64,000 nucleotides of DNA from Henricia sp. BOLD:AAB3569 (taxonomy: Eukaryota > Echinodermata > Asteroidea > Spinulosida > Echinasteridae): assembly GCA_037783545.1 (NCBI GenBank), contig JBBELK010000316.1:372001-436000 (forward strand), written 5' to 3'. The translations under genes were made by a program, and so were the position numbers. Under the pieces are notes generated by a model. It was not told where the DNA came from, did no database searches, and saw only the letters and a list, made by a program, of their open reading frames with translations. Shown in pieces: positions 1 to 53,870 of the stretch. Each line of letters starts with the position of its first letter. Position 1 is the first letter of the stretch.

Positions 1-528
1 ATTCTAGTACTAGCACAGGAAGTTAAGTTCGACGCACTAGACCGCTCGGCCATAACACCCCGCTTGGATGCCAAGCTGTATGTCCAGTGTGTTTTGCAAT
101 TAGGTTCAATGATCCCCAAAAGTATTTATTGGCAATAGAAAGGGACTTTCCCTGTGTTTCAGGTCGTCTGTTCAAAATGTTTGCCTACCTGTGCCAAAAA
201 TGACAGAATTGTGAAGAACATTAGGACTCTCTGTGGAATGTACTTTATAAAAAATGCATATTATCTACGCTAAATTGATGCTATGAAGATTCATATCTTA
301 TAACATTTTAAACAAGCTTAAATAGGGGTTCTTTGATTCTAAGCTCACAAATGAACCATAGCTTGATTTCTGAATATCGTATGATTTTGAAAAAAAGCAT
401 CATTTTGGGCTTAGATGTTATTTTTCTAAAATTGTAAAAAAAAAAAAACTTGGGTCAACTTTACAACCCTGCCAGTTTCTTTTGGATGGTCAAAATTAAT
501 TTAATTTTTTTTCTTTTCATATGCTCAG
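1..528. other. Intron or upstream flank, no feature seen
   Basis: AT-rich with an A-run at 438-448 and a T-rich tract just before 529. No exon recognised. Confidence 0.5.
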
Positions 529-3500
529 GTCAACTTGCAGCTTGTGGAGGAGGTGCCTACGGTGGCCCCGGTGGTGTAGGTCAAGGCATAGACTCCTCTC
601 AAGCCTTTCCTTCATTTGGCTCCATCTACGAACCCACCAAATCAGGAACCAGTGGTGGTAACGGTGGAAAAGGCGGCACGCACCTCCGCTTGCAATCGCA
701 GGAGATACGTATCGATGGTAGCCTCCTGGCTAACGGGGAACCAAGTTCCGGAAGTGGTGGCAGCGGTGGCAGCATTTGGGTTTCTGCGGGCGTTGACTTC
801 AGGGGAACAGGGTTGATTTCAGCAAGTGGTGGAGCTGGGGGATCGTCTGTTTGTGGTAGCGGAAGCGGAGGTCGAATTGCTGTCTACTCGGACTCAACTG
901 ACCCCTTCGTTGGTCATTATAATGCTGCGGGAGGCACAGGTCAGTCCAGCGGTCCCGGAGGTCCAGGATCCATCTATTTCCAAGAAAAGCGAGAAGGAGA
1001 GACTTTTGAAAAATTGATCGTGGACAACAGAAATGGGCAAACGACACTCTATTTTACACTGGAAGAGGATTGGAATGAAGGTGCTGTAGATGAAATTGAT
1101 TTGAGCGACAATGTTATGTTCCAACTGAATCCTGATGGTTCTAGGATGTTGTTTGACATGCGGAAGGTCGTGGGCGATGGCTCTGCTTTGGTGCATATTC
1201 ACAAGAATCAGACGGTCATTTTTGAGAGGATTTTAGAAGCAAATGATACAAGTGGGAAGACCTATGTTAATATCCGGGTTGACCAGGGAGGAGAAGCTAT
1301 TATGTCATCAAGAACTCAACTTGTTGGGAAGGGGACAGCGCACGTTGCTCTAGATCTATCAGGAAGATTAACTGGTGTCCAGGACCTCGCGCTGGGTGAT
1401 GATCGTGTTTTCAGAGTTTCTAAAACAGCCAGTGCTGTGGTTCTTGTTGATGATCAAAGTGGAGAAATGGGGAAGTTTACTTTTGCTTCGGTGGAGCTTT
1501 CAAGCGGCAGTCGGTGGGAATTTGAAGACAACATGGGCGCTCATCTGACAGTTGGAACCATGGATGTGAAATTTGGAGCCGGGATCTGGGCGGATTTCTT
1601 CCAGATCACTGCATTTGATCTTGATGTGGAAGTAGGAGCTGTTCTCTCATGTAGTGGGCCAGATCGACAAGGTTCTTCAGATCTTGATCAGTTGATTGGT
1701 AGTGGGAAAATGGAAGAAGGGATTGATTCTGGTGCCGGTCACGGAAGTTTTGGAGGAGTTGGCAAATCGGTTTCAAATAATGGTGGAAAACCTTACGGGT
1801 CACTCTACTACCCTACAGAAAAAGGAAGCAGGGGTAGTCTTAATGGAGGACGTGGTGGTGGCACGGTTTCTATCATGTGTGCCGAATTGATCATAGACGG
1901 GGAAATATCTGCGAGTGCTGGTGATGGGAAGAATGGTCATAGAAGTGGGGGAAGTGGCGGGAGCATCTTAATTCAGCTGCAGAACTTTGAAGGGTATGGG
2001 TTACTCTCCACAGATGGTGGAGATGGATTTGGAATTGGGGGCGGCGGATCTGGAGGACGGATTGCTGTTTACACGAACCTGACCAGTCTGTACGGTGGCA
2101 GGTACTCGGCTCTCGGTGGCAGGGTCTCTCAAGAATCCACGATTCCGGCTGGAGGTGGTAGTGGAACGGTCTTCCTGCAGGAATTAAAGAACGGAGTCCC
2201 ATTCAAGAGGCTTTTTATCGACAACCAAAACAGGCAGATAACTCAGTACGTCACTTTAAACGAAACGGGTACAGAATCCTACGAGTTTGACGAGGTACAT
2301 CTACCAAGGAAATCCTCTCTTCATATTGATAAAGAAACTCTTGATGCGCTCTTGGTGATACACAAAGTCTACGGTGACAGGACTGGCTTGCTACATGCTC
2401 ACGCGAGACAACACTTTATCGTCGAGGTGGTGGAAAGCACTCCAACGGTGACAAAAGCACCGGTCAATTTTATCATGGACGCTGGGTCAGAGATTGTCTT
2501 TCCAGCTACACTCTACGTCATCGGCTTTGGCATTCCAACAGAGAATTCAGATGTCGCGTCTCTTGAATACGACGGACGACTGACAAACGTCGCTAATCTG
2601 ATCATCAACCAGGCAGCTACGGTTCAAATCATGCAGACTGCGCACACGGCCATCATGGAAAACGGCACATACGTGGCTATAGGCAAACCTGGAATCTTTC
2701 AGTTTGGAAGCCTACTTCTCCTAACAGAATCCACCCTCAATTTTGCTCCCGACATGGGCATGAAGTTCTCTACAAGTGAGCTTCATGGCCGGTATGCATC
2801 AACAATTTCTGCTGAGCATGTCGAGCTACAGTCTTCGAGCTTCAATCTCGAAGAAGGCGCTTCCCTAACTTGTTCAGCTTCTGATCGTCCCGACGATGAA
2901 ATCTCGGATGTTAAAGGAAAAGGACATCCAGCTTCTGGAAACAGTGGCGGTGGTGGCGGCGGCCATGCGAACAGGGGAGGAATAGGTTACGACAGCTCCG
3001 TGAATCCTGTTGCTCCTGGTGGAGTGTCCTACGGCAGTTTATACAATCCTAGAGAACGGGGAAGCGACGGAGGTGCTGGTACAACACAGATTGGGGGACG
3101 AGGCGCAGGGTACATCACGATCAAAGTGGCTGGTCGGATTCAGCTGGATGGCGGCATCAAGGCACAGGGATCTTCCTCATCGGCTGGGAGCCTTGGCGGA
3201 GGGGGAAGCGGGGGATCTGTGAAGATTGAATGTTGGGAGCTTGACGGTCATGGTGTGGTCACAGCACACGGGGGTGACGGAGACGGGCCCCAGTCAGGGG
3301 GTGGTTCTGGAGGACGTGTTGCTATCTTCACCCAAGGCCTGAACCACTTCCAAGGAAACTACTTAGCATATGGTGGATCGGGAGGGACGTCTGGGACAAG
3401 ACCTCATGGCGAGCCAGGCTCAGTTTACCTCCAGGAGCTCAAAGGTGGAAAACCCTACAACAAACTGCTTATAGACAATTCAGAGAGGTCCTGGAATCAC

Positions 3501-4016: not shown

Positions 4017-7000
4017 GTAAGTCCTAGTTCATTGGCATGTTTCGTTGCCTTACATACATTAACAGAATTTCATAAAGAGCTTTTGATATTTTTGTAGTTG
4101 CATGATATGTACATTGGTGTGCAAAATTATTTGAACACTTTAATCTGAACAAATTGGTTTACATTTTTTATCTGCCAGTCCTGCAATTTTTTGTTCTTAG
4201 TTTTCATCACAATCAACTAAAGCATCTAAAATATGCTTCAACAACGGAAAGCATGGCTTCAAATGTGTGACTTTGCTTCTTTTGATCTGTACTGATTTTC
4301 AGTGAATTTTTTTTTTTACAGGACATGAAATGGAGTTCCAGCTTCAGTGCAGAGTTCTTTGAAATCTTTGCCACTGACTACTTCTTGGAGCCAAGTGCAG
4401 AACTGATGTGCTCGGGCCGGGGCCCTGAAGATGGTGGCCCTGGAACAGGCGCAAAAGGCGCCGGAGCTGGCCATGCTACCAGAGGCGGAAATGGTAACAA
4501 TCATGATTTTTGGGGAGACACACCAAAAAGCGCCATTTGTAAAAGTTTCTCATTCCTGTATTTTATTTTTGAAGACAGATGACATGATTAAAAAACTGCT
4601 AAAAATAGGATTATCTCCATGTGTGATTGAGGATGTGTCATAAAAAACAAACCTGTGTATAAGTCAGCTCAGTTCCTCATATTTTTTCAGAAAAAAATAT
4701 GAAAACTGTCCCCGCTTTCAATTCAATTCAATTCATTTATTTCAATGTTGAATTCACACAATACAAAGATAATTTACTACAATAAACTGTAGAAAACATC
4801 TTAATATCAATGACGAGTACATATCAATGACGAGTTTAGAAGCATTTCTATCTTCAATTTGAGTAAGGTTTTTCCAGTAAAAATCTTGTATTACGGGCTT
4901 TAAATGGTTATCTTTAATAGCACCTGACGGAACTCAAGGAGGCTCTGTGTATGGCTCAATTTACGAACCCACCATAGGAGGCAGTCGGGGTGGTGCGGCA
5001 TCTAACGACTACCCTGGTCCTCGCGGCGGAGGCAGAATACGCATCGTTGTTGGTGCTATCTTGAATTTGGATGGGAAGATTTTGGCGGATGGGCTCGATG
5101 GCACAAATGGCGCTGGGGGAGGAAGTGGTGGTGCTGTATGGGTAACCACAGGTAAGGAGGGATTTTCGCGAGCTTGGGTGGAAAGCTTTTTATTGTTATT
5201 ATTATTATTATTTCTTCTTTCTGGTATTCATACCAAGGATTCCCCAATAGTGCTCATTGCACTGTCACTCGCAAGCGTGAGGAAACCCATGAAGAATTAG
5301 AATTAGAAATGACCAGAGACACCGGGGAATATCCCCTTGCTCTTTACGAAAGAATGCTCTGGGATCTTTAGAGTGCGTTACCATTATCTAAGACCCTGGA
5401 CCAACGGCTTTTCATCCCTTCCGAAGGATGGAGCAAGTGTGGTTGAGTGCCTTGCCCAAAGGGCACAGGTACCGCAGCCGAATGAATATATGATTGGAAT
5501 ATTCTAATAGTAAATTATTCGAATATCAAATATTTGTTAAGGCCCGTCTAAACGAACTAATATTTGTTGGCCAACAAGGACCAACATCAAGTTGGGCCAA
5601 GTAGCTCTCGCTCAACTTTGTTAGAGCTTGTTGGATGAAACGGACAAATAACAGATGAGAGTGCCTGTCACGTGAAGGCAGCAGCCAACCGCCGTCGAGA
5701 TATTTTGGGTCGTGTGGACGAGCGCATCCATGCAACGCCCAACAAGCTCCAACTTCGTGTTGGTCCTTGTTTGCCGACAAATGTTGGCTCGTGTAGACGG
5801 GCCTTTAGACTAGCTTGGTCCGAATTTGTATCAAATACTACACAGTGGAATGCAGTAAATTAGAAAATAAACTTGATCATTCTAGAAAAGAATTCTACAT
5901 ACATGTGACCCACACGGTCAAGTAAGGACTGCAACCCAATCTACATACACGTCCAGAAATCGAACCCGTGATGCCAGAGGTGTTTATTTTTCACTAACTT
6001 TTAAATGCAGGTCACTTCAGAGGCCACGGTGAGATTTCCTCCTCTGGTGGGCGTGGCCATGTCACATCAGGGGGCGGGGCAGGAGGTCGTATAGCAGTTC
6101 ACATCACCGAACTAGATGAATATCGCGGTGCGCTAAAGGCTCTTGGCACTGGTGGAACAAATCAGGGGGATTACGGCGGGACGGGAACAGTCTACGTAGA
6201 ACAACCAGCCAACGGGACTTGGTACACCAGACTGTATCTGAACAACCAAAATGCAGTGCCGCCAAAAGAGTTCATTTTTGCAGAGAGAAACCCAAGAACT
6301 GTGAGAAATGAAGAGACGGAACACAACTTCGCTGACTATGGATTGGATGAGCTTATGCTGTTGGGAAAGGTAAGACATTTGTAGATAAGTTATGATTACA
6401 CACACAATGTCAGTTCATTTTTATGTTAAAATGATAAAAGAAATAGGTGAGTACTGTCCGAATACTTTCAGCATTTCAAAGGCCCCGAGTATTTTAGGCC
6501 AAACTCGGGTGATTAACATCAAACCAAGTTTACCTGATGTACAATAGACCTTTATCACAGTGCGACCATCTTCCCTTTTCTCCTATTATAATTAACGTAA
6601 CCAAAACGAGGCTTGCAGAAAAAAAATAGTTTGGTCCCGTTTTAAAACTGTTCATTGTGTGCATCACAATGGCACAGGCGTTGTGCGATCAAGAAAGCGC
6701 GCAGCGTGTCTCAACGGGAGATTACATGCGCTATCACACGTTAGCGCAGACGCACTGATCGTGCCCGACACGTACTATGGGGAACAAGACAAAGATGGAC
6801 GCACCGTGATAAAGGTCTATTCTGAATGCAAAGAGTTTCACATTTACTGTATGTTCATAACTTGTATTGTTCAACATTTCCTTCAAGTACTTATCAAAAA
6901 AAGTACTTGACTGCAACACTGGCATAACTTTAGAACTATGCACATTTTTGTTGGATATTTTATCACACAGCTTGTCTTTAAGATAACATCAGATGGTAGC

Positions 7001-10000
7001 AATCCCAATCCTTCCATCTCGGTCCAAACAATCCTCGGTGACCGCTCATGCTTAATCCACGTTCAGTCCAACCAGACATTCTACATCGAGTACTCACAAG
7101 ATGAAAACCGACGCTCTCTTCCGCCGGCAAATTTCCACATCGAGGAAAACAGCGAAGTGTTCATTCCGGCCGATTTTAGAGTAATCGGCAATCATGATCC
7201 GCCATTTTATCTGGATGGACGCATGAGCGGAGTCTACAATTTCACCGTGGCCGAGGGGAAAAATTTTGTCGTGGGTCCTCACGCCACTAATGCACAGGTC
7301 AACAATGGGACATATGTTAATGAGCCTACGCCAGGTAATGATTTGCGTCATAATGTGACGAGACTATGTGAAATAAGTCGTATGTCGCTAAGTTTTTGTG
7401 ACCAGTTCTAGAAATCAGCGGCTGATCCAGGATCATTAAAATATGAAAATACAATGGAAATTCCGGGCGGTACCCTGGTACAGCCCAGATAGTCACTTAT
7501 ATTTTCCCTTTAAATGATCTCGATCCCCCGATGATTTTCGGTTATGGTCACGAAAAAACTTGGCGCAGACTGTGACATTTGACTCATTTTAGCACCTTTT
7601 TAGTCACAAACAACATTTATTATGAGTTGTTTTGTTACAAATTTTGTTCATTTAAGGGATAATTATTCATTATTTAATTGGTATTTAAAGGCACAGGCTC
7701 GTCAGCAATGCATGCGCGCCAAATTCGTGCCATGAAATACGCAGCTCCATGCCTTTTCTATGGAGCTGCGTATTTCGTGGCACGAATTTGGCAGGCGCGC
7801 ATTGCTGACGAGCCTGTGCCTTTAAGGACTCCTTCTCTACACCCGGTCGTAGTACCTGTGCCCTTGAGCAAGCTCAAGGCACTTAACCACAATTGCTCTA
7901 TCCTTTGGGAGGGATGTAAAGTCGTTGGTCCAGAGGACTCTTTCGTGAAGAGTAAGGGGATTATCCTCTGGCCGTCGGCTGCCAATGGCGCCACCCACCT
8001 ATGAATCTGGAAGTTTAGGTGGAAGACATTTGTGAGCTTCGTGCAATTCAGCCTACGGGCTGCAAAATGAAGTTCATTAAGCCCATTACATTGTGTAGAG
8101 AGCAGTTCACGTGAACGTACTCATATAAAGTGTGTGCTATATAAATGTAATTATTATATTATTAACATCCCAGGCGTTATTCGACTTGGCGTTCTGAAAC
8201 TCGAAGCGCAATCGCACCTCACGTATCCCAACCACATGCAACTTGAAGTTAATGACATCCTACTACGCTATCGGTCCAAAATCTCTGCCCAATCCATCAA
8301 CATCAGAGCTACGAACGTCCACATTGAAGGCGAGGCTGTGATTGACACGACAGGGCGTGGTCCAGGGGTGGAGTCTGGTGAAGGGGGCGGGGCAAGGTTG
8401 GAGGGGTCGTCTGTTGGGATAGGAGGCGGTCACGGTGGATTTGGTGGAGGTGCTGATCTGATGAACTACACTTCAGGTAAAGTTTGTATGTTAAGAGCTT
8501 GACTTTAGTCAAGTCACCAAAAGTTCAATTAGACGTAACACTAAAAGTATAGCAATATGTGGCACATATAATATCAAAGATACCATAGAGATTTAGCAAG
8601 TGTACGAATACGGATGTAAAAACCATTTACATCGAAGCACACACTGAACTGGGTTTCGCACTGCATGCCTGTATGCAGAGCTGCCAACCCTCCCGGATTT
8701 TGCAACAGATTCTTCGGAAAATGACTAATTTTGTGAGTCCTGACATGGATAAAAACTCTCCTGGATTGTCAATTAACAACCTATTTTTAGATGCACATGC
8801 TTGGAGTCACGGAATGAACCTCTTTTCCCAGATGTCTTCCCCAAAATCCGGGAGGGTTGGCAGCTTCAATTTCAATTTATTGTCCACAAAGGAAATTCTT
8901 GATATTTACATGGTTTCAACATAGATAGATACATTAAATTCTGTCTGTTTTCAGTTTATATTTCATGCTTTCATTTAAGGCTAATCCATTAAATTCAATC
9001 TAAATTCATAAATGACAAATACATTTCTCAATGTAGGAAATTAAAGATGAAATTAAACTGAAACTTCATTTAAAACTACTGACATATTGATATATAAAGC
9101 TAAATAACAAGAGAATAATTAGTGAAATTGGATAAAAATGGAAAGTTAAACAAAATTTGAACCTTTTTTTATTGTTGCATAAAGGTATCCCCTACGGCTC
9201 ATACACCAATTCATTCCACACGGGCAGTGGTGGTGGGGGACTAACCGGCGGGCAAGGAGGCAGTGTCATTACCATTTACGTCGGTCACTCTCTACACTTG
9301 GACGGGATCCTGCTGAATAATGGCGGCGATTCAAACGGTGGTCACGGGGGTGGGGGCAGCGGCGGTAGCGTGTACATCACTACGGTTTTGTTTTCGGGTC
9401 ACGGAGGGATTTTCGTAAACGGCGGTGGCGGTTTCGGTCAAGGTTTTGGTGGAGCTGGCGGAAGGATTGCCGTGCATGTGTCTTGGCTTAGAGAATATGC
9501 TGGGGATCTGATGGCATACGGTGGTCTTGGAGGGAACTCGCGGACTAAAACTGATCCGGGTCATGCGGCCGGAGGGACCGTGTACTACACCGACACAAAT
9601 CAAGGTCTGCGTTTCCGCAAAGCAAGTTTTGACAAACACGGCGGCACACTGTGGAAAGACGGCTTTACTAAACTCTACTTGGACAATCAAAACAGAAACC
9701 ACATCCTCCCAACGCTAATTGAAAATGACAATGGAACAGTCTTTGAATTCGACGAGATTGAGATCCACAATCACGTCGTGCTGTGGATCCACGGAGTCGA
9801 CTCGGAACTGATAGCGCACAAGTTCGTCGGTGACCGCACGGGCCAGATGCATTTAAGGTTCCAACAGAAAATGTACTGTGAAGTTGTGGAATCGCAGAGT
9901 GGGTTCACAATTGCGCCTGTCAGTTATCGGACAGATCTGAACACCGAGATTTTATTCCCAAGCACGCTTTTCCTTCTGGGAACCAGGACCCAATTTGAGG

Positions 10001-46000: not shown

Positions 46001-49000
46001 ACACTTCCACCTGACTGCAATTTTCACTCGGCATGTCATTCATCTGGTACGGAAGACCTATGACCTCGCCTTTGAGCTGTTGGTCAGATGCTCGGATGTT
46101 GCCAAACACGGAGGTGTTGTGTTCTCCTACTCGCATTATACAACCTTTGCAGTGAGCGTTGAATCGACAGTGACGGTTTACATTGGAAATACAATCCATA
46201 ACACAAATCTCATTGTGCAGAACGGAAAATGGAACAAACTCGTCCTCGTGTATGAAGACTACAACGGGAAATTAAATATCTATCATTTTGATTCCGAAGG
46301 TCGGGTGAAACGTTACCAATTAGACGTTGCAGTGCACCTGTTCAGAGCTGCTGGATACCTCACTCTGGGGTCCTGGCAACCCGCTTGGAACCTGACAAAC
46401 CAGACGCCTTTGAGGTCATTTTCTGGTCAGATTGATGACTTCCGAATCTGGAACCGGTATCTGAGTCCCGCGGAAGTCCCAGGTCTCTGGAGTTACAAGC
46501 CAGGTCTCAACACTCCAGGATTGGTGCGTTACTGGCCATTCGATGAAGGAGAGGGATTTATGTCAGAAGACAGCGTTTTTGGTGACGGGCTTTACATGCC
46601 AGATGAGCCATTGCTTCAACCACGGTGGGTTGACTCAGATGGACCTGTCCCAGATGATAATTTGACACCATCTATTGATCCCAACTTTGACAGCATTGAC
46701 AAGGAAACGGAAATAAAAAATCTCTGCGGACGATTGTTACGTTCGCCTCCAATCTCAAATTCCTGCAGTGATCTTGACAATGTAGACATGTTTTATCTCC
46801 TCTGTATTCGAGAAGTTGCAGAGACACAGGACCTTGATCAGGCTTATAAGGTTGCCTTCGGATTTGCCGACATTTGCCAGACTGCGAAGAACTTAACCAA
46901 CTGGCCAGCATTGCCGCTCTGTCAAGAAGCACCTAAGTTGAGAGCAGGTACGCAGTGCAAGGATGACTGTTTGTTTGGTGTTAAGCTACCATCGGATAGC
47001 TGTTCATGCTTGAGTGGATTTTATGGAGACCACTGCGACAAAGTTTGTCCCGGGGGCTCAATTTCACCTTGTAGCTCTCAAGGGAGTTGTCTTTCATCAG
47101 GTGAATGCGAGTGTGACCTTAACTGGGCTGGTGAGCCAGCTTGCGGGATTTGTGCTACCGGATGGTATGGTCGTGACTGCACTATAACCACTACAATAGA
47201 AGTAACCACTGTGCGATTACAATACGTAGCCTTCATCACTATGCATGCGCAGTACACTCTGTTTGATGGGCTGAGCTTCTACCTAGCTGCCGTTGGCGAG
47301 TTCTTTCTGATTCAGAGTACCAACTTGGTTGTTCAGATTCGGCAAGTTCCATGTTACTACCAGTCGGTATGTGTCAATGCTGTAGCAGTGCAGATCTCCA
47401 ATTCCGTTGTTGTGGTCCATGCTCCATATCAAATAAATCAAGCAGCTGTGCTTTGGATAGACAGAATCAAAGTGGACATAACATATAAAACACTTGCAAT
47501 TCCAAACACTGACTGGATTATTGAGCATGCTGAAGTGAACTACTTGATACTGTACTCAAATCTTCAACCAGATTACCACGTCAAGATTCGTATCATTGGA
47601 CTGTACATTCAGGTGATTGTTTCAACACCCAAACATGTCTGCCTCAACTCGGCAGGTCTGTTAGGTAACTGTAATGGCGACTACACTGATGATCTCATCC
47701 AAAACGTCACAATGCAATGGCATGATACACCACAAGAGGAAATAGACACCCTATTGGCAGAAATGTGGCGAGTCTCCATCATTGATTCGCTGTTTGTCCA
47801 TCAGTATGAAACCTCCATCGAAACCAGTATTCCTTCCGGAGCAGTGTTTGCTTTGGTTTTAGAAAACTCTGGAGGTCGGACAGAACCTTTGAAGAATTTG
47901 TCTTCAATCATCTCAAAGGATGAACTCACTATGGAATTTTTGGTCAAACCGTATTCTTACGGTGGCGTCATCATCTCATTCGGACTCGAGTCGACATTTG
48001 CCATTATCAACGATGTCACGATCAAAATCAGCATCGGCGTGGATATATATGACACCGGGATCACAAATGATCTTCGATCTTGGAACCGAATATCGCTCGT
48101 CTTCATAAAACAGGAAAACAGACTGCAGTTTTACCATCACAGTTCTGTCGGAGTAGTAAGCTCTTGCCGTTTCACAATCAGCAATTGGTTTTGGCTCGAA
48201 ACGGGCTCAATTTTGTCAGTTGGCCAATGGCTACCAACCCCAGACAACCAAACTTACAACCTGAATACAACCTTTGTGGGAGAACTTGACGAGTTTAGAA
48301 TCTGGAGCACCTCCTTCCTTCCAGCTCTTGTCCAACTCACCGACATTAAAAATGTTGATGCAGTGAGATATTCAGACTCTCTTGTAGGCTTGTACAAGTT
48401 TGATATCGGACTGAGTAGTGTGATATCGGATCCCATCCACGGGAATAACATCCTCACCCCAACAGGGCCTTGGAAGAAACCCAGATGGACATATTCCAAT
48501 GCTGATATACAAGTTACACTGTTAGCTCCATTTGAGGCCGATTTTGGCAACGAGACACTTCAGAAGCAGGCTGAGGAGCTATGTGGAAGGCTCAACGCCA
48601 CTAATGGAGGACTGCGGCATATCTGTTCGGATTTAAGCCAGTCGGCATTGGATTTCTTCTACCTGACATGTCTGCAAAATGTTGCTGCGACGAAAACAAC
48701 CGAGGGCGCCTTTGCAACCCTGGCAGTGTTGATCGAGTATTGTCAAATCAACAGTGGTAACCAGCCAAACACTACCGTGTTATGTGAAGTTTTTTCGGAT
48801 ATTGCAATCCCAGAGTGGCTGTTACCATCTTGCACCAGTTGTGGATTTGGACTCCCTGATGAAAATGATTCCTGCGTTTGCACGTATGGATATTGGGGAA
48901 GTTACTGCACAAACATTTGTCCAGGTGGAACTGCTACACCTTGCTCGGACCACGGTCTCTGCAAGAATGATGGTCTTTGTTTGTGTGAGGTCAACTGGAA

Positions 49001-52000
49001 AGGTCAAACGGACTGCAATGCTTGTTCCCCTGATTGGCTTGGAGATGACTGTGTCGTTGCAACAACATCCTGGTACAAGCAGCCAATTGTAGGACTTAGA
49101 GTCGTTGCCCTGTGTGGTGCTCAAGGGAGGATCGTTACATTCGGCGGAGTGTCAATGTTTCTGCGACATGTTGGGGTATACAACATTATAAGCCATTTGT
49201 CTAGCAATCTACAAGTAAACTTGAGACTTGCTTGGTGTGCGACAGCAGAAGGTTTCACTACCTGCTTTGATGCCATTTCCATCCATCACCAGTCCCAAGT
49301 CTTAATCTTCCGTGCCTCGATCAACTCTGTCTCACACTATCAACCCTACATATGGCTTAATGGACGGTTAATACATCTTGATCAAACAACACACATCAGT
49401 AGAGACATTGTCGTTGTCCGAGTTAACATCATACAGTACAAGATCTACATCGGGTCTCTAAATGTTGCCATCCTCATTTCGATTCATCCACATCACTTTG
49501 CAGTCAGCTTCGATGTGCCTTCGGGAATTTGTAACACCATTGGAACCAGCATAGGAGGATTACTTAGTTCCTGTGATTCACTCAATGACATTGAGCGTGA
49601 TGACTGCTGGAACCGAGACACCGAAACCACAATGGTAGATGGAAGTTCAGCTTGCAGGCAAAATGTATCCCAGGATTCTGTTAACAAATACACTGAGAAG
49701 TTTTTGGAGGTAGACTTTGTGAATGCATCCTATGAGCATGATCTCCGTTTGCTGCCAGTTCTTGGTGCAGGCTACCATCTCCACTTCACGGACAGTCTTG
49801 CTATTTCAGAACCTTTGTACTCCTTCCCATCCAAGAGGTTTACTCTGGAGCTGTTTGTCAAAGTGGAACGATACGGTGGAGTTATACTGACATACTGCAC
49901 CACAGACAGTGTGTTCGCTCTTGTTAATCTACAAACAGGACTTGCAGTTTACTTCGATGATCAAATCCAGGGCCTAAAATTAAATCTTCAGGTAGAAAAG
50001 TGGACTCAGGTTTCACTTGCCTGGCATCAGTCAACGGAAATCCTTGAAGTGTATGTGTTTGACATTTACGGAACCCCAACTGTCCAAGCAGTTCAACTAA
50101 CCAAAGATGCTTTCCAAAGTGGTGGCCGCATGGTTTTAGGACAGTGGTACTCTGTAGCTCCAAAGCCAACCCCACCCCTGCCAAATGAGCCGTTTGTTGG
50201 ATCTATTGATGAAATACGAGTTTGGGACCGAATCACAAATCCATCGGTTATCACGGCAAGCTGGAAGCTGAATGTAGCACAAAGTACACCGGACTTAGCG
50301 ATGGCGTGGAAGTTGAATGAGGGCTTTGGGTCAGAAGCGATTGACCTCATTGGCGGAATAAAGTTGTACTTACCAAGGTGGAACAGACCCACATGGATTA
50401 TTACTGACGATGACTACCCAATAGATCGTAACCAACCCCTTGCTTATCCCAACTTTGACAACACCACCTTGGCGGCTAAAGCCACTACAAAATGTCATGA
50501 AATCTTCTTGAGTGGAAGTCTTCACAATTCAACCGTACCACTAGGAATTGCGGTGATCGACATGCACTACATCCAGTGCCTGCATGATATTGCTTTTCAT
50601 CGGGATCTCAGCGCTGCTGTTGAAGCAACAATCTCCCTCTCTGACTTGGCTCAATTTGAGCTCAACTTGGTGGAGTGGCCTGCCAGATATTTGTGCAACA
50701 GTTTCCCAGGTTGGGACTTTCCATACTTCATTGGGCCACAGTGTGACATTCCTTGCATCTTTGGACGAAGAAATCCGCTTGATGAATCCCGCTGTATCTG
50801 CGAAACCGGCTACTGGGGAGAAGCTTGCGATAATGTGTGTCCCGGAGGCGAGCTAAACCCTTGCAATAACCATGGCATCTGTAATGTAACTTCCGGTCTC
50901 TGTGAGTGCAACTCTCATTGGCTTGGACCAGAAGCCCAACGGAGTAATCGGACCTATGCATGCTCGGAGTGTTCACCCGGATGGTTTGGCGCAGATTGCT
51001 CCATAAGTACAATCAACCAAACTCGCACACAGGGAATCGCAATCCTCTTTGGTCATCTACATTTTACGACCCTTGACGGCGCCAGTTTCCACTTTGGAGT
51101 ACCTGGAATGTACTACCTTCTAACAACACACTCTACGACACTTCTGGTCCTCGTGGAGCCCTGCTTTGCAAGCGTTGCTTGCAGAGAAATCACGGAAGTT
51201 TCAGTTCAGGGAGGAAGAGTTACACTGTCAATTGGTGTCAGCCTTGGTGTTAATCGTGAAGCTTTGATTGTGCAGCAAAAGAACCAAGATTCATGGACTA
51301 CCATTGACGGGCTTGAAAAAGGCGTGAGAACGGCGGGGACATTGTCATACACCTGGAACGGACAACATTTGGTGAATATAACCACTAGCAATTCCATTGT
51401 GATAACTGTAGCATTATACTCGGGAATCATGTCACTGATTGTTGATACACCAAAGGGTGTTGACTTGGAGCCAGTAGCTGTATCTGGATCATGGGATGAA
51501 AACTGGATCAATGATGTAAATGTCGGACAGTATTATCAAGGGACAGGGGATATCCCCGATAAATGGCATCCTGTGGATGATGGTGATTTTCTGGCCGAGG
51601 TGTTATCGCAAACGTACTGTGACAAGGACCTGAGCCCATACTTCCTAGTAGCACCAGATGTTTCTCAATTCATCAGCAGTCACGCCCAGATTTTCACTGC
51701 TGCAGGCTACTTTCTCCGTTTCTATAACAACCACGTTGTGTTTGCAGGCCTTGAAATGAAGGAGCTAGACCAGTTCACTCTGCAGTGTTGGCTTCGCGTT
51801 GGAATCTCTTCGTCATCCATTCAAACGTTGCTTTCTTTTGAATCAGAAACGTCATTGGTTGTGCAGCTACATGGGAATACAGTGAGAGTCCTATTTGACG
51901 GATTTGTTGTCACAACGAATCTGGTTGTGAGAGCAGGGCCGTGGTTCCACCTCAGTACGTCCTGGCGAAGTTTTGACGGCAGGATAAATGTGGATCTATA

Positions 52001-53870
52001 TGCCTTCGACCTGAAAGCTATGCAGACATTCATAGTGTATGGCATCCACACTGCGAGACATGTGCAACCGAGTGGCAATCTTTATTTAGGCCAGCTTGCA
52101 GAAGGCAACAGTGGGTTCAACGGAGACCTGGACCTGATACATCTTAAGGAATACTACTCCCATGGGGAAGATTTTGTGAACAGTCGGGAGCAATACAATG
52201 AAGACCTGGTAGCAGGAATGCTGCTTCTAATTGCAATTGATGAAGGATCGGGTCTGATGACTTTACTGAAACAGAACAGACCACAAAATGGCATTAACGG
52301 AACGCTGCTTCCACAAGATACTCCGCCCACTTGGCTCCCATCTGATGCACCAATCAACACTGAGACGGATTATTCACCCGACTTCAACCCAACAACTCTT
52401 GAAACAGAGGCAACAGCCATCTGTGACGCTTATTTCTACCAAGATCCCATCTACAGTTCCTGCAAAGATTTAGAAAGTGCTCTTCTGTTTTACTACGAGG
52501 CTTGTCTTTTGGATGTTGCCGCAACCAATGACGTGAGCAGAGCCAATGTCTCGGCTTACATGTTTGCCCTCCTCTGTCAACGCACGCTTGACCTTTCCCC
52601 AGATAAATTCTGCGGATTCTTTGAATTCTGCAAGGAAAGTCCAGTAGAAACTAGTTTCCCCTGGTGGCTAATCCTCATCATCATCATCTGCATTCTGCTG
52701 TTGATATTGATAATCTTTCTAATTTGTTGCATCATCTACAAGAAGAAAAAAAATAAGCAGAAACAACAAATTCAAGTTGTTACAGGCCAGAGATACACTC
52801 GTCCACCATCAGGGTCATCCAGACCCGGAGCACACAGACGACTTTTTATGGAACTGTCGCAGAGATCTCTACGGCGTGTAGATCCTGTCAAATCGCTTGA
52901 TGATGACGCAGAGGCAAAACCAGAAAGCGAGACGACTTTTATGAACCTTCCGACTCAGGAGTACTCTGCTGATACTAAAGAGCCCCTTCTCAGCTCCTTC
53001 GCACCAACGGAGGAATCGAACCTGAACCAATCTGCGGCAACAGGTGGCCATGATCCCTACAGAGAGCAGTATGGGGCATGTGCGTTCCCTTCAAATATGA
53101 CGGACAAGAATTGGGAACCTTCTGAAGAGGTTTTCAATCCTTTCATTGACTATATTGATCTGCCCGAATATGAGCCATTCGATGTTCAACTTCCATCATA
53201 CGAAGAAAAACATACCCATTTGAGCCAGAACCCAATTGGAGTAAAATACCCCCCACCAAGACCTGCTTCCCAAAACACCTGGGTATCGGAGGAACCAGAT
53301 AACCTCTCCATTGGAGCAGGTACAGTTGACCTTTGCCCCACCGAGGTCATGAATGCTTTCGACTCGAAACTCCAGAAGCTGAATGATGCAATCGCAGTAG
53401 ATGATGGATCTCAAAGTTCAAGAGATGGTTTTGATTCTTCACTAACACGTAAGCTGTTGGACTCCGCCAGCAGCAGTCGGCCACAAACCCCATCAGAAGG
53501 GACCCATGTTGCCTTCATGAATGCTGCACCTCCATCAAACTCTTCATCATCTGGAAGCGAAGCTGAAGAAGAGGCATCTCCCCCAAAGCCTCCAAGACCC
53601 AGCTCTGCCATCAGCGAACCTGATGAATGGAAGGCCTTTGACAAGCCTCAAATTAAACCCAAATCATTGCGGCAGTTACTTCGCAAACAAAGTTCTACTC
53701 CTTCAACGACTTCATCCATCTCAGGTGCACCCAAAGGTGCTAGATCGGCCACACCTGCTGAAATCCTCGACCTTGAAGAAATAGAAGACCTGGAAAATCC
53801 ACCGCTGCCATCTGAGATGTATGAAAACCCATTGTTTGATTTGAGGGATGGCGAGGAATCCATTGTTTAA
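529..53870 (+). CDS. Giant modular single-pass membrane protein, 27 exons, 5' end uncertain
   Basis: Joined exons: 529-4016, 4322-4493, 4921-5151, 6011-6369, 6971-7334, 8174-8476, 9185-10330, 10727-15826, 16400-16530, 17292-17457, 18096-18388, 18916-22534, 23947-24279, 24664-25214, 25729-25933, 26251-26961, 27858-28019, 28316-28540, 29402-29566, 30016-30312, 31443-31752, 32333-32459, 32929-40899, 41760-42733, 43221-43318, 43811-44063, 44753-53870. All junctions are GT-AG and keep frame; most are phase 1, as usual in extracellular modular genes. About 12,289 residues are visible. Domain order is glycine-rich two-part modules, EGF-like array, one bacterial-type repeat, nine EGF-VWD-LamG-C8 cassettes, transmembrane helix, cytoplasmic tail. 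The expected topology is type I, with almost the whole chain outside the cell. I do not recognise it as a named gene. VWD, C8 and EGF domains also occur together in secreted adhesive and mucin-like proteins, so a matrix or adhesion role is plausible but inferred. It could in principle be two neighbouring genes; no poly(A) signal or new start was noted between the parts. Confidence 0.8.
4322..4493 (+). CDS. Exon 2: end of module 3, start of module 4
   Basis: The acceptor follows a run of T and acag at 4321; entry is phase 0 from TTC TTA. It encodes the DMKWSSSF segment, which aligns with the end of half B in the other modules, then a GxGAGHATRGGNG glycine stretch. The donor GTAACA at 4494 splits a Gly codon. 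Confidence 0.75.
4494..4920 (+). other. Intron 2, mostly unique sequence
   Basis: Contains a short ATTCA-type tandem at about 4720-4740; nothing else recognised. Intron 1 (4017-4321) is likewise empty. Confidence 0.5.
4921..5151 (+). CDS. Exon 3: glycine-rich half of module 4
   Basis: It starts after ttaatag with the APDGTQGG segment and carries VYGSIYEPT and GGGSGGAVWV, the hallmark positions of half A. The donor is GTAAGG at 5152, phase 1. Confidence 0.75.
5185..5510 (-). repeat. SINE-family copy in intron 3
   Basis: The ATT-rich tail (5190-5215) lies first, so the element points to the minus strand. The segments CCCCTTGCTCTTTACGAAAG and CATCCCTTCCGAAGGATGG are shared with copies at 7826-8165, 32575-32770 and 54707-54960. 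The body at 5220-5310 also recurs at 58207-58312. Confidence 0.7.
5540..5804. mobile_element. MITE with TTA target duplication (Harbinger-like)
   Basis: The ends AGGCCCGTCTA and TAGACGGGCCT are inverted repeats. The homology goes on inward (TTTGTTGGC, CAAGGACCAAC against GTTGGTCCTTG). The element is flanked by TTA at 5537-5539 and 5805-5807. A 3-bp TTA/TAA duplication is typical of PIF/Harbinger. No coding potential. Confidence 0.75.
6011..6369 (+). CDS. Exon 4: module 4, second part of half A and start of half B
   Basis: It continues with GHFRGHGEIS and GGGAGGRIAVHI, then the LNNQN segment that opens half B. The acceptor aaatgcag ends at 6010. The donor GTAAGA at 6370 is phase 0. It is too short in frame to stand out as an ORF; it was found by homology to its sister modules. 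Confidence 0.75.
6545..6819. mobile_element. TA-flanked MITE, family 1 copy A (intron 4)
   Basis: The ends TAGACCTTTATCACAGTGCG and CGCACCGTGATAAAGGTCTA are inverted. TA at both borders fits a Tc1/mariner-type insertion. A second copy is at 31970-32274. Confidence 0.8.
6971..7334 (+). CDS. Exon 5: module 4, half B
   Basis: The acceptor is cacacag at 6964-6970. It encodes LVFKITSDG, then ILGDRSCLIHVQ, equivalent to the GDRTGLLHxH core of other modules, and DGRMSGVYNF. It ends in the PTPG turn. Phase 1 donor GTAATG at 7335. Confidence 0.75.
7685..7825. mobile_element. Fold-back element with TTAA borders (intron 5)
   Basis: Two arms of about 63 nt, starting AAGGCACAGGCTCGTCAGCA and ending TGCTGACGAGCCTGTGCCTT, are nearly perfect inverted repeats around a short centre at 7752-7758. 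TTAA flanks both ends (7685-7688, 7822-7825), as in piggyBac-type insertion. Confidence 0.8.
7826..8165 (+). repeat. SINE-family copy in intron 5
   Basis: Contains CCTTGAGCAAG, a GGGAGGGATGTAAAG core, AGAGTAAGGGGATTATCCTC and a 3' tail of TATATAAATGTAATTATTA. It is the opposite orientation of the copies in introns 3 and 22. Confidence 0.7.
8174..8476 (+). CDS. Exon 6: end of module 4 and start of module 5
   Basis: It encodes GVIRLGVLKLEAQSHL, matching the NFSFATLTVKRG segment of other modules, followed by GxGPG and GIGGGHGGFGGG, which open module 5. Acceptor atcccag; donor GTAAAG at 8477, phase 1. Confidence 0.75.
8679..8864. mobile_element. MITE with 23-bp inverted ends (intron 6)
   Basis: The ends AGCTGCCAACCCTCCCGGAT and ATCCGGGAGGGTTGGCAGCT are inverted. 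About 186 bp, non-coding. No clear target duplication. Confidence 0.7.
9185..10330 (+). CDS. Exon 7: most of module 5
   Basis: Starts with GIPYGSYTNS and holds GGGGSGGSVYI, GGAGGRIAVHV, YLDNQNR, FEFDEIEIHN, VGDRTGQMHLR and VTGVHSLF: one complete module without internal introns. Donor GTAAGT at 10331, phase 1. Confidence 0.8.
10727..15826 (+). CDS. Exon 8 (5.1 kb): modules 6-9 and start of module 10
   Basis: An uninterrupted exon with four consecutive complete modules of about 1,250 nt each. They begin near GPGKG at 10727, GPGGG at about 11990, GPGAG at about 13240 and GPGSG at about 14485. Each has GxPYGSxY, GGGSGGS, THGHGEI-like, GGAGGRIGIH, an HKYxHxDN segment, YEFDE, GDKTGxLHLR, VVESxSNxTEAPCSF, VTGVHHLYIED and NFSF. 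Modules 6-8 are closest to one another, pointing to recent tandem duplication. The start of module 10 (GPGAGATGSNGASGAGHGSKG) ends the exon at a GTATGT donor, phase 1. Many NxT/S sites are present. Confidence 0.85.
15827..16399 (+). other. Intron 8, no recognised element
   Basis: AT-rich, no exon or repeat structure seen. The same holds for introns 7 (10331-10726), 11 (18389-18915) and 25 (43319-43810). Confidence 0.5.
16400..16530 (+). CDS. Exon 9: glycine-rich part of module 10
   Basis: Short exon encoding GGTGGGVSGGTPYDSLYTAD and GGKGGGRILIRAGK. Acceptor atccacag at 16399. The donor is GTCAGT, weaker than the other donors, phase 0. Both junctions match the neighbouring exons in frame. Confidence 0.7.
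16570..16715 (+). repeat. Truncated copy of the TTAA-family element (intron 9)
   Basis: Shares CAATCATATAAAATACCTC, AATACTATCC and TTTATGGAACCAGATAAAT with the copies at 17775-18062 and 27464-27792. The right end is missing. Confidence 0.65.
16849..17222. mobile_element. MITE with TAA target duplication (intron 9)
   Basis: The ends GGCCTTTTTCCAAATCTCGG and CGAGATTTGGAAAAGGGCC are imperfect inverted repeats. TAA flanks both (16846-16848, 17223-17225). Harbinger-like. Confidence 0.7.
17292..17457 (+). CDS. Exon 10: module 10, GGGSGGS segment
   Basis: Encodes AITCNGLISASG, then GGGSGGSIILEAANLIGHGQ, equivalent to the GSGGSILIETTxxxGHGEI segment of other modules. Acceptor acattttag; donor GTAGGT at 17458, phase 1. 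Confidence 0.75.
17560..17726. mobile_element. TA-flanked MITE of 167 bp (intron 10)
   Basis: The ends TAGACTACTAAAGTG and CACTTTAGTAGTCTA are perfect inverted repeats. Further inward TTGCCATGG pairs with CCATGGCAA. Confidence 0.75.
17775..18062 (+). mobile_element. TTAA-family element, copy B (intron 10)
   Basis: Ends TGATCTGGACATGCTCCTTTAA at 18041-18062. It shares its body with copies in introns 9 and 16. The left border is worn. Confidence 0.65.
18096..18388 (+). CDS. Exon 11: module 10, end of half A and start of half B
   Basis: Encodes ANGGGSGGRIAILL, GGQGTSHGGPGTIYK, the VNNSN segment and FFNRVTLKRKACLTMIQ. Acceptor ctattcag; donor GTAGGT at 18389, phase 0. Confidence 0.75.
18916..22534 (+). 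CDS. Exon 12: end of module 10, half of module 11, start of EGF array
   Basis: It opens with SLTIGHVSGDKSGVLYIG (half B of module 10). From about 19430 it has a final glycine-rich half A with added cysteines (CGGGSGAGHGG, GSGGGNCGH) but no half B. From about 19990 it changes to EGF-like repeats, which continue to the end. After four or five simple repeats the array settles into a four-EGF super-repeat of about 135 residues: GCPGxxxDCSGHGxCN; DCPGxPDCxxRGFCN with NCxxGWMG; PCxxGxxxPMDSGxCxC; ECSGHGxC with WRGDLC. Six GCPG-type units lie in this exon. The donor GTAATA at 22535 is phase 1. Confidence 0.85.
22535..23946 (+). other. Intron 12 with G-run and C-run tracts
   Basis: Holds G-runs at 22742-22782 and C-runs at 23052-23085, a decayed fragment starting GGGCCAATTTCATAAAGC (about 22577), and the TTAA element at 23262-23628. 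No exon seen between. Confidence 0.6.
23262..23628. mobile_element. TTAA-flanked MITE (intron 12)
   Basis: The ends TTAAAGGAGCGTGACCAGA and CTGGTCACACTCCTTTAA are inverted. TTAA at 23262-23265 and 23625-23628 suggests a piggyBac-type insertion. It has distant similarity to the introns 10 and 16 copies (GATATCCT...GAAAAT). Confidence 0.75.
23947..24279 (+). CDS. Exon 13: EGF-like repeats
   Basis: Encodes GHGLCLNETPRRCQCYHDW, CEFGYNHGDQRGCVCDPCY, CSGNGVCTNDTCECF and GCPGVGTDCSNHGTCN, so it continues the four-EGF super-repeat in register. Acceptor tggtag at 23946; donor GTATTT at 24280, phase 1. Confidence 0.8.
24280..24663 (+). other. Intron 13, nothing recognised
   Basis: AT-rich, no element seen. 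Confidence 0.45.
24664..25214 (+). CDS. Exon 14: EGF-like repeats
   Basis: Encodes DCPREPDCNGHGECP, ITFMGDGCELRCIYG, CICEPCYAGLSCDRLC, GCPGFGEDCTGHGECN and DCPGTPDCNGRGVC with NWMGPACG. Acceptor ccttgaag; donor GTAAAA at 25215, phase 0, inside the PC-xx-FGKE EGF. Confidence 0.8.
25215..25728 (+). other. Intron 14 with repeat fragment and B-box-like piece
   Basis: The segment 25257-25325 (CGTGTAAACACGTTCTGGCA) recurs at about 57078-57140. GGGTTCGAATCCCG at about 25649-25662 resembles a tRNA B box but has no tRNA around it. Confidence 0.5.
25729..25933 (+). CDS. Exon 15: EGF-like repeats
   Basis: Completes the split EGF with TPPYSGICKCDPCYHGPHC, then CSGIGKCNPDGYCYCG and GCPGLYNTDCSGRGTC. Acceptor tttgttag at 25728; donor GTGAGT at 25934, phase 1. 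Confidence 0.75.
25934..26250 (+). other. Intron 15 with decayed repeat ends
   Basis: GGGGCCATTTTCATGG at about 26014 is a worn repeat fragment. AAATGTACCTCATTATTGTGG (about 26187) is a diverged copy of the end of the fold-back element in intron 23. Confidence 0.45.
26251..26961 (+). CDS. Exon 16: EGF-like repeats
   Basis: Starts DKCVCREGWVGVGC and runs through more than one four-EGF super-repeat, including NCPGEPNCNGRGNC, GWMGDACEIPC, NCPGVGQPCSDHGLC and DCPGEPDCNGNGVC. Acceptor gtattag at 26250; donor GTAAGT at 26962, phase 1. Confidence 0.8.
27464..27792. mobile_element. TTAA-family element, copy C (intron 16)
   Basis: TTAA at 27464-27467 and 27789-27792. The body closely matches 17775-18062 (AATACTATCCATGGGAAGAA, GGAAATTTGCAAT). 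The ends are imperfectly inverted. Confidence 0.7.
27858..28019 (+). CDS. Exon 17: EGF-like repeat pair
   Basis: Encodes PECTYKGCPGVGTNCTSHG, CYCKSGWKESGC and DCPGTPDCSNRG. Acceptor ctaatag at 27857; the donor is GTCAGT at 28020, phase 1. Confidence 0.75.
28316..28540 (+). CDS. Exon 18: EGF-like repeats
   Basis: Encodes TCDGDHYDPPRCADCHQGW, then CTHGEQVPANSGFCQCYDCY and CSNHGSCNGTHCVCQEGY, in register with the super-repeat. Acceptor atttcag; donor GTATGT at 28541, phase 1. Confidence 0.75.
28887..29274. mobile_element. MITE with GGCTG...CAGCC ends (intron 18)
   Basis: The ends GGCTGTTTTCGAGCGC and GCGCTCGAAAGCAGCC are inverted. GGGATCCCTGGTGC occurs twice inside. The segment before it (28558-28860) is another worn repeat ending TTTGTGAAATCGGCCCC. 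Confidence 0.65.
29402..29566 (+). CDS. Exon 19: EGF-like repeats
   Basis: Encodes GEFCEYLDCPGEPDCSDYG, RSVCLCNPGFTASDC and FCAGEPECSNQG. The units depart from the strict super-repeat. Acceptor gtctccag; donor GTATGG at 29567, phase 1. Confidence 0.75.
29567..30015 (+). other. Intron 19, nothing recognised
   Basis: Has a C-rich stretch at 29660-29680. No exon or element identified. Confidence 0.45.
30016..30312 (+). CDS. Exon 20: last EGF/laminin-EGF-like repeats of the array
   Basis: Encodes NCTLTGAIPQCVCFHGF, RCLPRYAGYRCQECAEGY, CLHGYATEPGGSECECY and CDECIEGWALPDCRSC. The CxxC-spaced units look more laminin-EGF-like than the rest. Acceptor actaaacag at 30015; donor GTAAAA at 30313, phase 1. 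Confidence 0.75.
30326..30712. mobile_element. MITE starting 13 nt after the exon 20 donor
   Basis: The ends CACCGTGTTTACACTGGTCC and GATCAAGTGTAAACAGGGTG are inverted, with a GAGCTCGG core repeated in both arms. The end sequence resembles hAT-type MITEs, but no clear 8-bp duplication is visible. Confidence 0.65.
31182..31324. mobile_element. Short TA-flanked MITE, family 2 copy A (intron 20)
   Basis: The inverted ends TAGACCGTATAAAATAGCTG and CAGCTATTCGATACGGTCTA, plus GCCATCTTGTAGGGCA against TTGCCCAACAAGATGGC. About 143 bp. Confidence 0.8.
31443..31752 (+). CDS. Exon 21: bacterial-type beta repeat domain, first part
   Basis: Encodes GLGHCFSCVTSHGGYRD, then the pattern ILECVxxxxNGTGYVAWFGY, YENQNPHNVYLAIGPDNRF and GQPTRFKPGNHTNVFSVR. 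From memory this matches a repeat frequent in secreted bacterial proteins (LECV...GTYTAxFGYxNxN...GxxNxF...GQPTxFxPG...FSV); no domain name is claimed. Acceptor tttttcatag at 31442; donor GTAAGG at 31753, phase 2. Confidence 0.75.
31839..32288. mobile_element. Family 2 MITE copy B, split by another MITE
   Basis: The left part, 31839-31971, runs from TAGACCGTATCGAATAGCTG to AAGATGGCAGCTA. The right remnant TTCTATACG resumes at 32275, after the inserted family 1 element. Confidence 0.75.
31970..32274. mobile_element. TA-flanked MITE, family 1 copy B (intron 21)
   Basis: The ends TAGACCTTTATCACGGTGCG and GCACCGTGATAAAGGTCTA. Compared with copy A in intron 4 it lies in the opposite orientation (the CAAAACGAGGCTTGC-like part is on the other side). 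Confidence 0.8.
32333..32459 (+). CDS. Exon 22: end of the bacterial-type domain
   Basis: Joined in phase 2 to exon 21. It encodes LSSAEDRATWYLAYSVSNRR, YQVMASASFQIPCSG and NEISEKE. The WYLxxxxxxxRxxxASA stretch is the usual last strand of that repeat (W-L-NG-R-xxAS). Acceptor cattttgcag; donor GTATGA at 32460, phase 0. Confidence 0.7.
32575..32770 (-). repeat. SINE-family copy in intron 22
   Basis: GGTAATCCCCTTACTCTTCACG, TTTACATCCCTTCCGAAGG and GCTCAAGGGCACAGGTACC match the copies in introns 3 and 5. Confidence 0.7.
32929..40899 (+). CDS. Exon 23 (8.0 kb): cassettes 1-4 and start of cassette 5
   Basis: A single open exon of 2,657 codons. Approximate layout: cassette 1 EGF pair 32929-33160, VWD 33180-33680, LamG-like 33770-34440, C8-like 34540-34735; cassette 2 EGF 34770-35060, VWD 35080-35600, LamG 35690-36350, C8 36480-36690; cassette 3 EGF 36740-36975, VWD 37005-37490, LamG 37550-38200, C8 38300-38500; cassette 4 EGF 38560-38840, VWD 38870-39330, LamG 39430-40130, C8 40250-40440; cassette 5 EGF 40480-40770 and VWD start. 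VWD hallmark: YGQGHFTTFDG ... GLLGACNGNQLDDF. EGF hallmark: PCNxxGxC ... GWxGxDCS. C8-like hallmark: C, then FYLxxCIxD, then ADxC. A basic RRRKR site lies in VWD 2. Acceptor tgtattacag; donor GTGAGA at 40900, phase 0. Confidence 0.85.
40921..41344. mobile_element. Long fold-back element (intron 23)
   Basis: The 30-nt ends at 40921-40950 and 41315-41344 are perfect inverted repeats (TGGCTCTTTCCACAGTAATG...). Inside, 41102-41120 and 41158-41176 form a second perfect 19-bp pair (TTCCTATTACGTATGTAAC). Homology also links the stretches between, so the whole element can fold into one hairpin. Confidence 0.8.
41760..42733 (+). CDS. Exon 24: cassette 5, rest of VWD and LamG
   Basis: Joins KIQ of exon 23 to MSQVVCASESVCLDGLGLSF, restoring the VWD pattern IQVRQxPCxxxxxCITALALQ. 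It then reads GLCGPCQDC and a LamG-like segment (FLVKTCASGCGGTILSYASS, GSLCLGAWQPGFDG, VGVIDDLRVWDR). The donor GTAAGA at 42734 is phase 2. Confidence 0.8.
42805..43030 (+). repeat. tRNA-derived SINE (intron 24)
   Basis: GTGGTCGAGTGGTTAAGACG resembles an A box and GGGTTCGAGTCCCAC a B box, but the acceptor ends do not pair as in a working tRNA. A non-tRNA body follows. Confidence 0.6.
43221..43318 (+). CDS. Exon 25: cassette 5, end of LamG
   Basis: A 98-nt exon found from the cassette pattern. It encodes SFFDSSAIQSHWNAF and GLTALWKFDEGAG, equivalent to the LxGLWKFNEGQG strand in other cassettes. Acceptor tttgtgcag at 43220 (phase 2), donor GTAAGG at 43319 (phase 1). Confidence 0.75.
43811..44063 (+). 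CDS. Exon 26: cassette 5, glycine linker and C8 start
   Basis: Encodes TLAYDSVSGRPIIL, PVWQPSDAPIPAP, then a glycine-rich linker (GTGSGGAEGGGAGGGLGG) absent from the other eight cassettes, then LDDFCKRITLAGPLYK, the first helix of the C8-like unit. Donor GTGAGA at 44064, phase 2. Confidence 0.8.
44093..44300. mobile_element. MITE in intron 26
   Basis: The left end AGGGCCGCCGAAAGTTGTCA and right end TGACAACTTTGGACGGCCACC are imperfect inverted repeats; CAACATTTTCAC against GTGAAAATGTTG extends them. Confidence 0.65.
44753..53870 (+). CDS. Exon 27 (9.1 kb): cassettes 5 (end) to 9, membrane helix, tail, stop
   Basis: A final exon of 3,039 codons ending in TAA at 53868-53870. It completes the cassette 5 C8 (NSCPIGEAAQQHYYQACLEA). 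Approximate layout: cassette 6 EGF 44930-45205, VWD 45240-45740, LamG 45960-46590, C8 46690-46890; cassette 7 EGF 46930-47185, VWD 47220-47730, LamG 47790-48440, C8 48550-48750; cassette 8 EGF 48800-49060, VWD 49090-49640, LamG 49720-50360, C8 50455-50660; cassette 9 EGF 50720-51005, VWD 51030-51520, LamG 51600-52280, C8 52400-52630. Cassette 9 leads directly into the membrane helix. The four intron-free cassettes in one exon suggest duplication within an exon. Acceptor tttttttctcag at 44752. Confidence 0.88.
52662..52739 (+). other. Transmembrane helix of the giant protein
   Basis: Twenty-six residues starting WWLILIIIIC and ending ICCIIY, nearly all Ile/Leu, are followed at once by KKKKNKQK. 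The positive-inside pattern puts the large N-terminal part outside the cell and the C-terminus in the cytoplasm. Confidence 0.95.
52740..53867 (+). other. Cytoplasmic tail (376 residues) with interaction motifs
   Basis: The tail is polar, rich in Ser, Pro and Glu, and has no recognisable domain. Visible short motifs are LPEY (53160-53171) and LPSY (53190-53201), both LPxY; PPKPPRP (53580-53600), an SH3-ligand type; YENPLF (53820-53837), similar to NPxY/F adaptor sites; and a C-terminal ESIV (53856-53867), which fits a class I PDZ ligand (S/T-x-V). Motif calls are pattern matches only. Confidence 0.6.

Follow-up and report, generated by a model that had tools for sequence, protein, structure and literature searches.

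We analysed 64,000 nucleotides of the sea star Henricia sp. BOLD:AAB3569 (assembly GCA_037783545.1, contig JBBELK010000316.1, here C316, positions 372001-436000), a stretch that we call the window, and identified in it the 3' part of a giant gene built of glycine-rich modules (GRMs), EGF units and cassettes containing VWD domains. Coordinates are window positions, with negative numbers for places upstream. The reading that we favour, with a probability of about 0.7, is that UBR5 and an acireductone dioxygenase (ARD) gene flank one gene of about 144 kb, whose predicted product of some 21,800 residues crosses the membrane once and would act in adhesion or tethering. Long open frames lie on one strand of the window, including runs of 1,219, 1,714, 1,241, 2,689 and 3,043 codons. 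Our own splice-aware gene finder, trained first on long open-frame runs and next on its own exons, places 27 exons in the window (529-53867; 36,755 coding bases, 12,252 residues, no internal stops), in agreement with an earlier note on this DNA that had joined 27 exons without a frame break over 53 kb. The single in-frame model for a membrane protein proposed there is well supported, but it is not the whole gene, and its size of about 12,300 residues is an underestimate, given the further 90 kb that the gene occupies outside the window. Position 529 is a phase-1 intron acceptor, and a good one, rather than a start, and exons of the same type continue upstream for 90 kb on the same contig. The full model begins with an ATG at -90353 (C316:281,647), opening MRLKRLAVVLLVLVVSQLGQTTSPC, and comprises 106 exons, 65,415 coding bases before the stop and 21,805 residues, with a calculated mass of 2.32 MDa and 210 N-glycosylation sequons; the window holds its 3' 56%. 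Altered intron penalties gave 104 or 111 exons and 21,667 or 21,872 residues, and small exons may be missing from the model, since some modules lack a stretch.

All parts of the gene in the window lie on the forward strand. Positions 1..528 are the 3' end of the intron between exon 79 (-853..-299, C316:371147-371701) and exon 80, as given by the gene model. GRMs are then encoded by exons 80 (529..4016), 81 (4322..4493), 82 (4921..5151), 83 (6011..6369), 84 (6971..7334), 85 (8174..8476) and 86 (9185..10330), by exon 87 (10727..15826), in which a hidden Markov model (HMM) of the module finds four whole copies starting at 10759, 12022, 13267 and 14518, and by exons 88, 89 and 90 (16400-16530, 17292-17457 and 18096-18349). 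Exons 80-86 and 88-90 were assigned by the gene model and by the haplotype test described below, exon 80 also by the module HMM. In exon 91 (18916..22534) the GRM array ends at about 19984 and the EGF array begins, according to the module HMM and Pfam. The EGF array continues, by Pfam and the gene model, through exons 92-95 (23947-24279, 24664-25139, 25729-25933, 26251-26961) and 96-99 (27858-28019, 28316-28540, 29402-29566, 30016-30312), and is followed by two linker exons, 100 and 101 (31443-31752 and 32333-32459; gene model and haplotype test).

Nine cassettes of the order EGF-VWD-LamG-C8-like come next, with EGF parts at 32983 to 50814. Exon 102 (32929..40899; Pfam) carries cassettes 1-4 and the start of cassette 5, with EGF motifs at 32983, 34882, 36808, 38674 and 40585; exons 103, 104 and 105 (41760-42733, 43221-43318, 43811-44063; gene model and haplotype test) hold part of cassette 5; and exon 106 (44753..53867; Pfam and hydropathy) holds its end, cassettes 6-9 (at about 45037, 46990, 48894 and 50814), a membrane helix and a tail, before the stop TAA at 53868-53870. 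The helix of about 29 residues (52659..52745), followed by KKKKNK, is the only stretch of the model whose 20-residue mean hydropathy exceeds 2.2, and the methionine at -90353 has the most hydrophobic start among the 256 methionines of the model. A signal-peptide-like start and one membrane helix, as judged by hydropathy and reading, thus give a single-pass layout with a predicted cytoplasmic tail of about 373 residues (52746..53867, by hydropathy). The order reported in the earlier note, from glycine-rich modules through EGF repeats and nine VWD cassettes to a membrane helix and tail, is recovered by Pfam, the HMM and hydropathy.

The module HMM was built from eleven modules and iterated on the full protein model. 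It finds head-to-tail copies of about 390-410 residues each from residue 34 to 13,795, making some 31 modules, the last one partial, plus an N-terminal cap; eleven are in the window. Gaps between modules are mostly of 30 residues or fewer, with seven larger ones (50 to 789), and some upstream modules are split by other domains, such as the discoidin domain of exons 4-5 (Pfam E 9.5e-23). Between the first module and the remaining array, at -79259 to -75262 (exons 8-9), we observed a run of some 800 residues whose repeats look beta-rich but lack the glycine-rich part. One further HMM match, at residue 18,708 in exon 105, was taken as chance because it is far from the array. The regularity of the modules also tests the exon joins: exons 76-79 make up one module (-10216..-299) and exon 80 opens the next (from 543), so that the array runs across the window edge.

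It is important to note that GT-AG introns arise here by construction, because the finder is restricted to GT and GC as donors and to AG as acceptor; the independent check of the splice sites therefore comes from the other haplotype. The same stretch is found on contig C80, which is collinear with C316 over the compared parts and past the ARD side, and we take it as the allele of the C316 locus; a paralogue was rejected on the same collinearity. The ARD side is known on both contigs and the UBR5 flank on C316. The test covers exons 1-22 and 61-106 (68 of 106). In the second set, all 46 exons keep their AG and their GT or stop, have a net length change divisible by 3 and contain no stops; over 15,106 codons, synonymous divergence (dS) is 0.068 and nonsynonymous divergence (dN) 0.011 (dN/dS 0.165). 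In the first set, 21 of 22 exons fit as modelled, with a dN/dS of 0.17 over 2,310 codons. The sole misfit (67 of 68 fit overall) is exon 11, for which the model had put the donor in the wrong place; at the corrected site both haplotypes have GT. In the collinear chain, counting gaps within alignment pieces, 45.3 kb of aligned exon contain 12 gaps, six of which are not multiples of 3 singly and are cancelled locally by neighbours to multiples of 3; 27.1 kb of aligned intron contain 381, 52 of them multiples of 3. The exon chain is maintained on both haplotypes for 68 exons. A very long repetitive gene with a second, allelic contig might be a decayed or mis-assembled array, but the two contigs agree, dN/dS is 0.17, there are no stops and the net frame is kept in every exon tested (68 of 106), so that we regard this explanation as extremely improbable. 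Haplotype identity reaches 99.97% over 60806-66714 (5.9 kb), whereas the large exons of the giant gene are about 97% identical.

That the locus is a single gene is, from its sequence, very probable. Several points weigh against this. The intron between exons 76 and 77 is 6.8 kb long; two in-frame ATGs with hydrophobic runs precede exon 80 (486) and exon 100 (31232), the latter at the EGF-to-VWD join; this join (exons 100-101) is the weakest place of the model, with no Pfam domain found in either exon and with exon 101 lacking a coding signal and being identical, together with its flanks, in both haplotypes. As for size, titin and PKZILLA are larger and MUC16 is reported in the same range, so that size alone is not unique. 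Two or more genes could account for the points on the intron, the ATGs and the join, for instance a separate module gene and an EGF/VWD gene, as could an internal promoter or a main isoform that uses part of the chain. However, a single conserved module motif is divided by the junction of exons 76 and 77, across which the HMM matches the module, phase is kept at every join, and the model has one membrane helix, near its end. Of the 28 ATGs that lie in frame upstream of exons, 486 is the best, followed by three weaker ones (-25568, 31232 and -29267); three of these four candidates were compared, and the frames from 486, -25568 and 31232 are each broken by gaps in the other haplotype. A gene start at or near 529, which is an acceptor, was accordingly rejected together with the signal-peptide-like frame of ATG 486, as was a second start at 31232. 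Exons 99-102 are in phase with their splice sites kept in both haplotypes, which with the broken frame at 31232 favours one gene, as in the earlier note; a boundary of two genes between the EGF array and the VWD cassettes is not favoured. We regard any multi-gene or partial-chain explanation as quite improbable.

Neighbouring genes lie on both sides. Upstream are UBR5 exons (E 1.3e-112 to UBR5 chains), and the 5' boundary of the giant gene is sharp; a frame ending in ...KTKAFGFV at -93742, after the UBR5 exons and before the giant gene, is what we take to be the end of UBR5. Downstream, on the reverse strand, a frame at 57289..57657 matches ARD (Pfam PF03079, E 2.1e-30).

The module has no Pfam match above cut-off (one weak listing, Adeno_E1B_55K, has 17.5 bits against a cut-off of 24.5), no PDB relative by sequence to E 1, and none of the window modules reaches an NCBIfam cut-off. 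A two-module query against the 740.7 Mb assembly (2,104 contigs) gave 48 matches, every one of them to this locus or its allele; because 55 of 65 candidates were scored, a distant copy elsewhere in the genome is not fully excluded. The predicted structure of 611 residues of exon 87 is a beta-helix. Among chains preselected by Foldseek, to which the structure comparison applies, the list for the module includes the bacterial adhesins HMW1, EtpA, FHA, pertactin and antigen 43, as well as beta-helical enzymes, an antifreeze protein and tailspikes; the best E is 0.019, and the resemblance to these adhesins is one of fold only. The predictions support the view that the modules may be beta-helices of the type found in bacterial adhesins.

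A scan of bacterial and archaeal genomes, with at least 592 pattern matches, found at least four loci with the module among the matches listed: in a Patescibacteria metagenome-assembled genome (MAG; L030), an unclassified bacterium (L031), a Verrucomicrobia MAG (L032) and an uncultured bacterium (L033). An HMM made from animal modules only scores them at 227, 569, 340 and 100 bits, respectively, while 84 shuffled or reversed controls all stay below 4 bits and shuffles with glycines fixed (50 each) reach maxima of 22, 54, 27 and -1 bits. The likeness therefore goes beyond glycine content, since the glycine-fixed controls score far lower, with glycine spacing adding some. All four host genomes are positive, with 2, 6, 2 and 24 matches. 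The 24 in the last of them (G004) lie on several contigs, which may point to a family of surface genes of this kind in that bacterium. The bacterial proteins have the same motif order as the Henricia modules, and those of L030-L032 the same tandem layout; unlike the Henricia protein, the L031 chain runs on into invasin-D3 and TIG domains, without EGF or VWD. On these comparisons, the module has clear bacterial relatives. The L031 protein also matches the NCBIfam AgmC N-terminal domain NF047640 (E 6.6e-10, with 38.5 bits where the cut-off is 275), and of seven window modules a single one matches it at E 2.1, short of the curated score; we treat the possible, indirect link to AgmC as a lead, and our search of the open-licence literature found no paper on AgmC. 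Contamination as the source of the modules was rejected because the modules are part of spliced exons on two contigs, and on one of these UBR5 and ARD flank them.

The EGF array spans 1,717 residues with 286 cysteines and 43 EGF C-terminal halves, counted by regular expression, and matches the Pfam teneurin EGF model EGF_TEN (PF25024, E 5e-86). Teneurins have an N-terminal membrane helix and C-terminal barrel and YD repeats; here the helix is near the C-terminus, in a type I layout, and Pfam scans of eight exon-sized pieces contained no teneurin barrel or YD families. In the cassettes, Pfam finds VWD (PF00094) at E 7.9e-38 over three stretches of exon 102 and at E 5e-15 over one of exon 106, together with Laminin_G_3. 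Cassette 3 (36805..38670), delimited by Pfam and predicted structure, consists of an EGF part, a VWD domain (residues 71-225, Pfam E 8.2e-17), a LamG/pentraxin-like domain (about 260-487) and C8-like helices (500-581); the LamG/pentraxin-like domain thus stands between VWD and the C8-like part, and C8 does not follow VWD directly. The cassettes resemble the D assemblies of gel-forming mucins and VWF (MUC5B, MUC5AC, MUC2, VWF), in which TIL/E modules occur and of which CGLCG and GDPH are typical motifs. In contrast to those proteins, each Henricia cassette opens with EGF rather than TIL/E, carries the inserted domain and belongs to a membrane-anchored chain. GDPH is also mentioned in the abstract of PMC10880436. 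Neither GDPH nor CGLCG occurs in the 21,805-residue model; GICG or GLCG, without the first cysteine, is present in cassettes 3, 4 and 5, and GLLG in two cassettes. The modelled structure supports a description of the cassettes as probable mucin/VWF-type D assemblies with a pentraxin-like domain inserted. Elsewhere in the assembly, C298:3469540-3589456, which includes locus L041, has four tandem VWD matches, with open frames of about 1,200 codons; in the one that was read, GDPH is intact and a hydrophobic helix lies at the C-terminus, with no module or cassette layout seen.

A rival reading of function draws on the D-assembly fold and on RRRKR at 35272..35286 (forward strand) in the VWD of cassette 2, which is the same in both haplotypes and which we take to be a furin-like basic site. 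If the one gene encoded a secreted matrix or mucus polymer, cleavage there would free the first 16,450 residues or so, which would polymerise like gel-forming mucins. The membrane helix and long tail would nevertheless retain the remainder with most of the cassettes, and the absence of CGLCG and GDPH, despite the partial motifs in three cassettes, also argues against such a polymer, which we consider unlikely. Weighed against both a shed matrix polymer and other receptor roles, adhesion or tethering is slightly preferred. The fold matches make the putative adhesion or matrix role proposed in the earlier note more specific.

Large adhesive proteins of flatworms and a sea star may be set beside the giant protein by description rather than by sequence, since they have VWD and related domains. 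As described in PMC6410801, Mlig-ap2 has 14,794 residues, 46 repeats and TSP-1 repeats; Mlig-ap1 and Sfp1 have VWD, C8 and EGF, Mlig-ap1 also lysine/arginine-rich regions; and all three are described as secreted, the word "transmembrane" being absent from that text. Our search of the open-licence literature, which covered few topics, found no report of a protein such as the one described here.

Two observations concern the introns. An Rfam tRNA match of 46.5 bits lies at 42804-42875 on the forward strand, between exons 103 and 104, where ARAGORN makes no call; it is possibly a tRNA-derived repeat. Short stretches such as 5300-5473, 17747-18016 and 27468-27766 match several other places of the allelic contig and are therefore repeats common to introns. 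The source of the DNA was also considered: COX1 copies on one contig recur at a spacing of 16,221 bases, which corresponds to the length of a mitochondrial genome, and COX1 has 13 AAA codons, several at sites of conserved asparagine, as in the echinoderm mitochondrial code. The order of tRNA genes beside COX1 presumably resembles that of sea stars. A deuterostome, echinoderm source is supported.

In the single-gene reading, the chain would run from the signal peptide through about 31 GRMs, about 43 EGF units and nine cassettes to the helix and tail. A turn of a beta-helix takes about 23 residues and 0.48 nm, and the array could form a rigid rod measuring a few hundred nm at most (about 260 nm for 31 modules of some 405 residues). 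The EGF array would be a disulphide-rich stem, and the cassettes a belt close to the membrane, possibly binding calcium and sugars, that may self-associate like D assemblies. The tail, with its NPF, LPSY and SPPKPPRP stretches, may link to endocytic or SH3-type adaptors, and the basic site of cassette 2 may permit furin-type cleavage into two chains. As a tentative and somewhat doubtful scenario, an echinoderm ancestor would have gained a bacterial-type beta-helix adhesin module, multiplied it about thirty-fold in one gene and fused it to EGF units and pentraxin-inserted D-assembly cassettes, giving a 2.3-MDa cell-surface protein with an adhesin rod hundreds of nm long.

If the gene is expressed as one message, its product would be, to our knowledge, among the largest predicted membrane-anchored animal proteins, and an echinoderm would allow tests of how a coding sequence of 65 kb is transcribed and spliced and its product translated and secreted. 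A module family common to bacteria and an animal, seen in one gene of the genome, raises the question of its acquisition, and a D assembly split by a pentraxin-like domain would bear on the evolution of mucin and VWF assemblies.
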